From the NCBI RefSeq assembly GCF_012295615.1, contig NZ_CP051183.1, positions 2,507,001-2,571,000 of the forward strand: a stretch of 64,000 bases of DNA, given 5' to 3'. The notes under the pieces are model-generated. The model made no database searches and was not told where the DNA came from. It was given only the letters and a program-made list of their open reading frames with translations. The translations under genes and the position numbers were made by a program. Below, piece after piece: positions 32,841-36,495 of this stretch; positions within the stretch are counted from its first letter, which is position 1; each line of letters opens with the position of its first letter. This DNA comes from Bermanella marisrubri. GTDB lineage: Bacteria > Pseudomonadota > Gammaproteobacteria > Pseudomonadales > Oceanobacteraceae.

Positions 32841-33968
32841 ATGAAATCATTTCCTCGTCGTCGCTCGTCATTAACTAATGGACGCTCGACAATGAAAGTA
32901 TCCCCAAATCGCTTACAGCAATTAGGTTGGCGGCCGTTTTTCCAACAGCAGTTATCCTTAGAAGCGCTAGAACAACTCAAGCCAGCTCGAATTGTTGCTC
33001 AACATCGCTCCGAGCTGCTGCTTGAGAGCGAATCAGGTAATTGTAAAATCATTCCCCCAAGAATGAATGGCGAACCACTGCAAGTAACGGTAGGCGATTG
33101 GGTATTGCTTGATACTGATCATCGCTTCCATTCTTTACTCCAAAGACAGTCACAACTGGCCCGTAAGGCGGCCGGATCGAAATTGGAACAACAGCTAATT
33201 GCTGCCAATATTGATACGTTATTTATAGTCAGTTCATTAAACCAAGATTTCAAACTGAATCGAATCGAACGTTACCTGGTGTTAGCCCACGAAGCGCAAG
33301 TAGAGCCAGTCATTCTGCTCACAAAAGCCGATTTATGTGAATCTCAAGACATGATTGATGAAATTATGCAGCAGGTACAGAAATTGGATACTTCAATGTC
33401 GGTACTTGCGTTAAACGGGCTCGACCGAGATAGTTTAAAACAGTTATCGACTTGGACTGGAACGGGCAAAACATTAGGCTTTGTGGGTTCCTCTGGTGTA
33501 GGAAAATCCACATTGGTGAATCTTCTATTAGGTGATGTTGTTATGGATACACAAGATATTCGTGAGGACGATAGCAAAGGTCGCCATACGACGACCGGCC
33601 GATCACTGCACGAGATTCCTTCAAGCGAACTGATCCATGGCGGTTGGGTAATGGATACGCCAGGAATGCGTGAACTTCAAATCGCCTTTGCTGAGTCTGG
33701 AATTGACGCTACTTTTTCCGATATCACGGAATTGGCAGAACAATGTAAGTTTAATGATTGCCAACACCGCAATGAACCTGGATGTGCAGTATTAGAAGCG
33801 ATTGATCGTGGTGATTTGGAACTCAGACGCTTACAAAGCTACCAAAAACTATTGCGTGAAGAAGCCCATAATTCTGCTTCGTTGGCAGAACAACGGGAGC
33901 ACGATAAGTCTTTGGGGAAATTGTACCGCTCTGTGCAAAGCGCTAATCGAAAAAACAAGCAGTTTTAA
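32841..33968 (+). CDS. rsgA: Ribosome small subunit-dependent GTPase A
   Basis: Circularly permuted GTPase that aids late 30S maturation. 375 residues. An N-terminal OB-like segment (HRSELLLESESGNCKIIP, VTVGDWVLLD) precedes the G domain in permuted order: G4 LTKADLCE, then G1 GSSGVGKSTLVNLLLG, G2 RHTTTGRSLHEI and G3 DTPGMREL; the C-terminal zinc finger is CKFNDCQHRNEPGC. The basic N-terminus (MKSFPRRRSSLTNGRSTMKVS) could instead begin at the second Met (codon 18). Monocistronic with a hairpin downstream. Confidence 0.9.
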   Translation: MKSFPRRRSSLTNGRSTMKVSPNRLQQLGWRPFFQQQLSLEALEQLKPARIVAQHRSELLLESESGNCKIIPPRMNGEPLQVTVGDWVLLDTDHRFHSLLQRQSQLARKAAGSKLEQQLIAANIDTLFIVSSLNQDFKLNRIERYLVLAHEAQVEPVILLTKADLCESQDMIDEIMQQVQKLDTSMSVLALNGLDRDSLKQLSTWTGTGKTLGFVGSSGVGKSTLVNLLLGDVVMDTQDIREDDSKGRHTTTGRSLHEIPSSELIHGGWVMDTPGMRELQIAFAESGIDATFSDITELAEQCKFNDCQHRNEPGCAVLEAIDRGDLELRRLQSYQKLLREEAHNSASLAEQREHDKSLGKLYRSVQSANRKNKQF

Positions 33969-34025: not shown

Positions 34026-34049
34026 TATAGCAAAAGCCGTGTAAAAACT

Positions 34050-34076
34050 ATCAAGCGGCCTGCTGGGCCGCTTGAT
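34050..34076. terminator. Strong hairpin overlapping the end of the small ORF
   Basis: Perfect 11-bp GC-rich stem ATCAAGCGGCC with GGCCGCTTGAT and a 5-nt loop. On the plus strand TTTTG follows and it can end rsgA read-through; on the minus strand it encodes the last residues and stop of the 24-codon ORF and is followed by AGTTTTT, a U tract. Works as a bidirectional terminator. Confidence 0.8.
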
Positions 34077-34125
34077 TTTGATAAGTTTGACCTAAAAACT
34101 GATTCAGCAAGTTTTGCATATTCAT
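34051..34125 (-). CDS. 24-residue small ORF, last gene of the hpf-yccA operon
   Basis: ATG 34125 to TGA 34051 encodes MNMQNLLNQFLGQTYQNQAA followed by QQAA. AAGGAG seven nt before the ATG is the best Shine-Dalgarno in the neighbourhood, which argues for translation. It lies 39 nt after yccA on the same strand. The opening resembles, from memory, the NLLNQFLG-type start of DUF533/YebE-like membrane proteins, so it may be a truncated remnant or a genuine small amphipathic peptide. Its final codons form the terminator stem. Confidence 0.6.
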   Translation of the reverse strand: MNMQNLLNQFLGQTYQNQAAQQAA

Positions 34126-34164
34126 AACGCACTCCTTACTTACCATTTTAAAATCTGCTTTAAC

Positions 34165-34833
34165 TTATTCCTGACTCGCAAAACCCAACAAGTGCAACAA
34201 GCTAGTAAACAAATTAAAGATTGAAACAAACAGTGTTGTTGTCGCCATAATATAATTGGTTTCGCCGCCGTTTATAATATTGCTGGTTTCATACAAGATG
34301 AGACCCGACATGAGCAATACAAACATGGCCGAAACCGCAAGCGATAATGCCGGCATCTCAAAGAAAATGGCGCCTAAACCAGCTAAAAAGCCAACGATAA
34401 TACCGACCGTAAGGAAGCCGCCCATAAAGCTAAAATCTTTTTTCGTTGTCAGCACATAGGCAGACAAACCCAAGAAAATTGCGCCGGTGACCCCCATGGC
34501 ATTCATCACGATCGAACTACCGCCCGGTAGACTCAAGTATGCATTTAGGATTGGACCCAAGGTGAGCCCCATAAACCCAGTCAACGCAAATACGAGTACA
34601 ATGCCCATGGCACTATTCTGAAACTTAGAGATCGCAAACAGTAGCCCAAAGAATACGACAAGCGTAATCAGCAGCCCCGGATGCGGCAAATTCATAGACG
34701 TGGATACGGCAGCAACCGCACCACTAAAAAGTAGTGTCATTGCGAGCAGCATATAGGTGTTTTTAAGCACCTTATTCTTAACGCCCTGACTAACAACTGG
34801 AGTATCTACTTGATTGATAATATCGTTGTTCAT
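34165..34833 (-). CDS. Bax inhibitor-1 / YccA family membrane protein
   Basis: 222 residues with about seven transmembrane helices (for example NTYMLLAMTLLFSGAVAAV, GLLITLVVFFGLLFAI, IVLVFALTGFMGLTLGPIL) and the BI-1 family's GPILNAYLSL and LILYETSNIINGG regions; the latter carries the conserved acidic residue of the family. YccA interacts with and modulates the FtsH protease in E. coli; here that is family inference. The start is ATG 34833, which overlaps the hpf stop as ATGA and has GGGAGG seven nt upstream. Operon with hpf and the small ORF. Confidence 0.9.
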   Translation of the reverse strand: MNNDIINQVDTPVVSQGVKNKVLKNTYMLLAMTLLFSGAVAAVSTSMNLPHPGLLITLVVFFGLLFAISKFQNSAMGIVLVFALTGFMGLTLGPILNAYLSLPGGSSIVMNAMGVTGAIFLGLSAYVLTTKKDFSFMGGFLTVGIIVGFLAGLGAIFFEMPALSLAVSAMFVLLMSGLILYETSNIINGGETNYIMATTTLFVSIFNLFTSLLHLLGFASQE

Positions 34834-35240
34834 AATTGAGCCTCCCAATCTGAAAACTCTTCAAAATCTTCTTGCATATAGCGATCGCGGTTCATATTGC
34901 CAAAACTGGGTAGCCTTTTACGAAACCGTTTGGCCTTATGACGCAAGCGGTCAAGCCTTTTGGTGACAGTTAAACTAGCACGATTAGCGGCCTTATCGAC
35001 CACAGCTTGCATTTCACTATCTACATCTTCAATGACGACATCTTGATGCCCTTCCAATTTAAGTAACATCCGGCAGTGTTTATCCTCACCGCCTTTAGGA
35101 CCATTCAAATCAGAAAGTACTACCTCAACTCTTTGAATCTGATCTGAGCGTGATCCAAGCGCAAACTGCAAACGTCGCTTAATGTATTTCTTTAATTCAG
35201 CACTTATCTTTAAGCGACGCACATTAACTATTATTTTCAT
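34830..35240 (-). CDS. Ribosome hibernation/associated factor (HPF/RaiA family)
   Basis: 136 residues with the beta-alpha HPF fold: MKIIVNVRRLKISAELKKYIKRRLQFALG, RVEVVLSDLNGPKGGEDKHC and VVIEDVDSEMQAVVDKAANRASLTVTKRLDR. Short-type proteins of this family bind the 30S decoding region and silence ribosomes. A basic linker (HKAKRFRKRL) and acidic tail (YMQEDFEEFSDWEAQ) follow the core; there is no full long-HPF C-terminal dimerisation domain. Not adjacent to rpoN, the usual hpf site, so this is likely a second, divergent family member. GGAGGAACGACC precedes the ATG. Confidence 0.85.
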   Translation of the reverse strand: MKIIVNVRRLKISAELKKYIKRRLQFALGSRSDQIQRVEVVLSDLNGPKGGEDKHCRMLLKLEGHQDVVIEDVDSEMQAVVDKAANRASLTVTKRLDRLRHKAKRFRKRLPSFGNMNRDRYMQEDFEEFSDWEAQL

Positions 35241-36246: not shown

Positions 36247-36265
36247 TAATAGATGAAATGGAAAA

Positions 36266-36342
36266 TGGTATCCCGTAGGGAGATGAGACCGCCGAGTATT
36301 GCAGTAAATGGCGCGGTGTCCTAAGAATCAAAGAAAAGAAAA
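36266..36342 (-). repeat. tRNA-Glu-derived 77-bp tandem repeat, copy 1
   Basis: Begins with TGGTATCCCGTAGGG, identical to the 3' end of tRNA-Glu including CCA, and contains GCGGTGTCCTA from its anticodon arm; the T arm and anticodon loop are altered and the D arm and 5' acceptor strand are replaced by A-rich sequence (plus-strand reading). Cannot fold as a normal tRNA. Differs from copy 2 at one base (36300). Confidence 0.9.
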
Positions 36343-36419
36343 TGGTATCCCGTAGGGAGATGAGACCGCCGAGTATCGCAGTAAATGGCGCGGTGTCCTA
36401 AGAATCAAAGAAAAGAAAA
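36343..36419 (-). repeat. tRNA-Glu-derived 77-bp tandem repeat, copy 2
   Basis: Same 77-bp unit as copy 1 with a single T/C change (36377), directly abutting both copy 1 and the CCA end of the intact tRNA-Glu. On the tRNA strand each unit places a U-rich stretch straight after a CCA end, so these could also act as weak terminators. Confidence 0.9.
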
Positions 36420-36495
36420 TGGTATCCCGTAGGGGAGTCGAACCCCTGTTACCGCCGTGAAAGGGCGGTGTCCTAGGCCTCTAGACGAACGGGAC
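36420..36495 (-). tRNA. tRNA-Glu (UUC)
   Basis: 76 nt including encoded CCA. Acceptor GTCCCGT pairs with ACGGGAT; anticodon arm CCGCC-CTTTCAC-GGCGG gives anticodon TTC; T arm AGGGGTTCGACTCCCCT. Transcribed after tRNA-Ala (10 nt apart) as one unit. Confidence 0.97.

Follow-up and report, generated by a model that had tools for sequence, protein, structure and literature searches.

The 24-codon frame behind hpf and yccA in Bermanella marisrubri is, with a probability of roughly 0.9, the relic of a DUF533 gene that lost its interior in frame and whose remaining 3' codons now form a predicted terminator. This reading was reached from the sequence of a 64,000-nt stretch of NZ_CP051183.1 (the window), positions within which serve as coordinates below.

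Inspection of the region confirmed the preliminary description of the frame, which had reported AAGGAG at good spacing from an ATG at 34125, 24 codons, a TGA inside an 11-bp stem, AGTTTTT after that stem, and a position as third gene after hpf and yccA, all on the minus strand:

35240..34830, minus strand: hpf-type gene (Pfam Ribosomal_S30AE, PF02482)
34833..34165, minus strand: yccA-type gene (Pfam Bax1-I, PF01027)
34137..34132, minus strand: ribosome-binding site AAGGAG, with a 6-nt spacer to the ATG of the 24-codon frame
34125..34123, minus strand: ATG of the 24-codon frame, by sequence reading
34051..34125, minus strand: 24-codon frame and stop, encoding MNMQNLLNQFLGQTYQNQAAQQAA; very probable DUF533 gene remnant, both ends homologous to L003:1542-2273
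34053..34051, minus strand: TGA of the 24-codon frame, by sequence reading
34076..34050, minus strand: 11-bp hairpin and U-rich tail (AGTTTTTACA), probable hpf-yccA operon terminator, overlapping the last codons

The hpf and yccA genes overlap by ATGA, and 39 nt separate the yccA stop from the ATG of the 24-codon frame. An alternative in-frame start at 34146 would give a peptide of 31 aa, but homology and the ribosome-binding site favor the ATG at 34125. The peptide matched none of the Pfam families at E values up to 1, the Rfam search gave no match over the frame, and viral contigs gave no hit in an exact search with 60 nt. A second yccA-type gene was found in the source genome (G000:C1:1859261-1859896, 58% identical to that of the window), and the operon yccA is therefore one of two paralogues. 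Elsewhere in the window, a 77-bp unit in 2.3 tandem copies (98% match) occupies 36261-36434 and runs into the end of a tRNA gene:

36420-36495, minus strand: tRNA-Glu, overlapped by the 77-bp tandem repeat

By eye, the 77-bp unit and the tRNA-Glu have ATGGTATCCCGTAGG in common, and because of this shared sequence the repeats may be decayed tRNA pieces.

Evidence on the origin of the 24-codon frame came from comparison with relatives. The window yccA was searched for in 35 genomes, the source genome included, and was matched in 32 of them; outside the source genome only two matches exceeded 70% identity, those of G002 (83%, the closest yccA relative found) and G005 (78%), both of the same genus. 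The preliminary description had proposed comparing the region downstream of yccA in relatives, and this comparison revealed a full-length DUF533 gene in G002 and at other loci. In G002, a frame of 243 aa begins 46 nt downstream of yccA, in a position equivalent to that of the 24-codon frame, and has GGAG 7 nt upstream of its ATG (read by eye). Its product, which starts with MNIKNLLNQFLG and ends in QQANQAALQAA, was assigned to DUF533 (PF04391; E = 3.2e-52, residues 42-235), the family of which E. coli YebE is presumably a member. Alignment of the two sequences with MAFFT showed that the window peptide resembles this protein at both ends and lacks the whole of the Pfam-modelled region between them; relative to the G002 gene, about 219 internal codons are missing and the reading frame is kept. 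A further identity in the junction, placed arbitrarily by MAFFT, was left out of the following counts:

34090..34125, minus strand: kept 5' end, codons 1-12 (MNMQNLLNQFLG); shares 10 of its 12 residues and 31 of its 36 nt with G002
34078..34089, minus strand: junction region QTYQ, the likely place of the ~219-codon loss, with exact end points not resolvable
34051..34077, minus strand: kept 3' end, 8 codons (NQAAQQAA) and stop; shares 7 of its 8 residues and 20 of its 27 nt with G002

We considered whether the frame might have arisen by chance over a terminator and be unrelated to DUF533, as its sequence is short and partly of low complexity. The C-terminal match on its own is moderate evidence, being short, rich in Q and A, and reached by some shuffles (662 of 100,000 residue shuffles and 911 of 100,000 codon shuffles). 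At the DNA level, 24 of the last 39 nt of the frame are identical to those of G002, and the similarity extends beyond the stop with a score of 39, which was not attained by any of 2000 mononucleotide shuffles (maximum 34). The N-terminal agreement, at the equivalent position behind yccA, is difficult to reconcile with a chance origin. In a control set of 948 window ORFs of at least 20 aa, the target included (scored from the ATG at 34125, and the other ORFs from their first start), the target scored 54 against residues 1-12 of the G002 protein and 32 against its 12 C-terminal residues, and the best of the others scored 24 and 17, respectively. As none of the other ORFs matches either end as well, the likeness to DUF533 is not a matter of chance, and we consider a chance frame extremely improbable. 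The control and the matching ends support the earlier suggestion of a truncated peptide related to DUF533-type proteins that begin with NLLNQFLG.

To place the frame among more distant loci, we used two features of our own definition, distinct from the Pfam model, both of which the window peptide has: the N-terminal motif MNxxNLLNQF(L/M)G of hpf-yccA-linked loci, and QAAxQAA at the C-terminus, as in the proteins of G002 and L114. The survey comprised 167 loci with yccA, drawn as the best matches of each search only (8-30 per search, 80 in one), so that many genomes with a yccA match lie outside the sample. Removal of eight duplicates and three loci with less than 100 nt of flank left 156 loci, which were scored over at most 400 nt behind yccA, a scan that detects only forms retaining the N-terminal motif. 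The motif was identified in eight of these (scores 45-59; next best 24), namely L003, L061, L069, L114, L115, L116, L120 and the window (L002), and hpf was present in all eight. Of the scored loci, 56 had an hpf match, and the motif was absent from 48 of these; the other 100 have another kind of yccA, without hpf. Four of the motif loci (L114, L115, L116 and L120) had first been found by their DUF533 match, and the yccA search reached the same four places, as L144-L147, which were dropped from scoring as duplicates. L069 is from Agarivorans and L061 from a Gammaproteobacteria bacterium, and the remaining motif loci belong to the genus or order of the window. The QAAxQAA end is partly present in L069, L117 and L118 and absent in L115, L116 and L120. 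At L117 and L118 a DUF533 gene is accompanied by an hpf match, and the stretch examined has no yccA match, which suggests that gene order may vary. The order hpf-yccA-DUF533 recurs in L003, L061, L069, L114, L115, L116 and L120.

The survey also bears on whether the 24-codon frame is a selected microprotein, that is, a short DUF533 N-terminal segment kept after the loss and acting at YccA or the membrane. Such a role would be consistent with the intact frame, start and ribosome-binding site, and with the good conservation of the 12 N-terminal residues across the motif loci. The motif is, however, conserved in full-length proteins, and its conservation is thus no argument for the short form. 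Six of the motif loci have frames of 229-254 aa and that of L061 runs open for 91 aa until its contig ends; only the window frame is short, and no second short form retaining the motif was detected among the 156 scored loci. In addition, G005 retains hpf-yccA without the 24-codon frame. The earlier idea of a membrane-surface peptide linked to YccA/FtsH was therefore unsupported, and we regard a selected microprotein as unlikely. It is similarly doubtful that the in-frame loss turned a gene of about 243 codons into a working micro-gene, with a peptide that retains the N-terminal segment and last codons that double as a terminator.

The distribution of DUF533 in the source genome and its relatives agrees with loss of the gene. 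A close relative has an intact homologue in the equivalent position (G002, L003), and profile and protein searches found no intact copy elsewhere in the source genome, which is 99.99% complete: there was no PF04391 match above the cut-off of 29.6 bits (the best, at 12 bits, was located elsewhere) and a search with the G002 protein gave nothing at E 0.001. At that same threshold the G002 protein was matched in two of nine genomes of the genus, G002 itself and, weakly, G004 (E = 6.1e-4, 30%). Across the order, 72 of the 390 genomes drawn had a DUF533 match. Three genus members have hpf beside a close yccA, and they carry the full gene (G002), the remnant (the window) and, in G005, no adjoining DUF533 gene. 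The stretch behind yccA in G005 is hardly like that of the window (63 of 2000 shuffles scored as high), and its resemblance to the region 3' of the G002 gene is suggestive only (2 of 2000 shuffles as high, with a maximum of 39 versus 37). The preliminary description had held that a relative keeping the terminator and lacking the frame would speak against its proposals. This condition could be applied only in part: G005 has no such frame, but by eye its hairpin differs from that of the window too, and G005 is thus no example of the window terminator kept without the frame.

The hairpin itself consists of 11 pairs, seven of them G-C, with a loop of 5, and is followed by AGTTTTT. It resembles an intrinsic terminator in this stable, G+C-rich stem and the U-rich tail at the apparent end of the operon, and differs from one in overlapping the end of the remnant frame, both its final codons and its stop, the latter lying within the 3' arm of the hairpin. 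Based on these features, the hairpin most likely ends the hpf-yccA transcript. The fold of the 124-nt stretch 34164..34041 had a z of -4.99, and none of 200 shuffles was equally stable. For 54 nt around the stop, the window fold (-20.2 kcal/mol) was the strongest, yet it was not far beyond the range of the full-length genes (-13.8 kcal/mol in G002 and -5.1 to -17.1 kcal/mol in seven others). The arms are perfect in the window, whereas in G002 the equivalent codons are imperfectly paired as part of a larger fold. About 100 nt past the G002 stop, a G+C-rich hairpin accompanied by a T-run was seen by eye. Under a stricter hairpin rule the whole window contains five hairpins, none of which contains the stop of an ORF of at least 100 aa. 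Of the four besides the present one, two follow such an ORF at a distance of less than 150 nt, and five hairpins are too few to rate the rarity of the overlap.

The position of the stop within the 3' arm could also point to a regulatory element, in which ribosomes completing the 24 codons open the hairpin and transcription continues. The neighbor beyond the hairpin is a convergent ORF of 375 aa (32841-33968), which we take to be RsgA-like, and the window ORF listing has no minus-strand ORF of at least 100 aa between the hairpin and 32526, so that read-through control would have no evident target. Moreover, the overlap is accounted for if these codons stem from the former C-terminus. The hairpin opening coupled to translation that had been proposed earlier is conceivable but unsupported, and we consider a regulatory element highly unlikely.

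Remnants that arise by internal deletion are a known general kind of gene remnant, and the window frame resembles them in that both ends of the parent are kept, the body is gone and the parent is intact in a relative; it differs in that the frame happens to stay open, so that it passes for a 24-codon gene. Judging by the full-length genes in G002 and at more distant loci, an ancestral operon hpf-yccA-DUF533, with DUF533 as third gene, would have lost about 219 internal codons, which joined approximately 12 initial codons to some 8 to 12 terminal ones and kept the frame by chance. The ribosome-binding site, start and stop would have been inherited from the parent gene, as their matching positions suggest. 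The old Gln-Ala-Ala-rich C-terminal codons would have given rise to the perfect 11-bp hairpin with its U-rich tail; it appears that in the lineage of the window these codons either took on the role of operon terminator or had it already. The terminator alone would suffice for the 3' codons to persist, without any function of the peptide, which, if made, probably has none of its own. Against a relic, the frame has been preserved together with its start, stop and ribosome-binding site, as would not be required of a decaying remnant; the C-terminal match to G002 is moderate when taken alone, and the QAAxQAA end is absent from L115, L116 and L120. For scale, a random loss preserves the frame one time in three.

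Together, these data indicate a case of ordinary gene loss. They advise caution in searches for small proteins, since a lost gene can leave behind a tidy frame with a strong ribosome-binding site and a conserved peptide motif. DUF533 was not named in the titles or abstracts of the literature matches listed. The recurring order hpf-yccA-DUF533 is a lead only, to the effect that the uncharacterized DUF533 protein may work with YccA or the hibernation factor.
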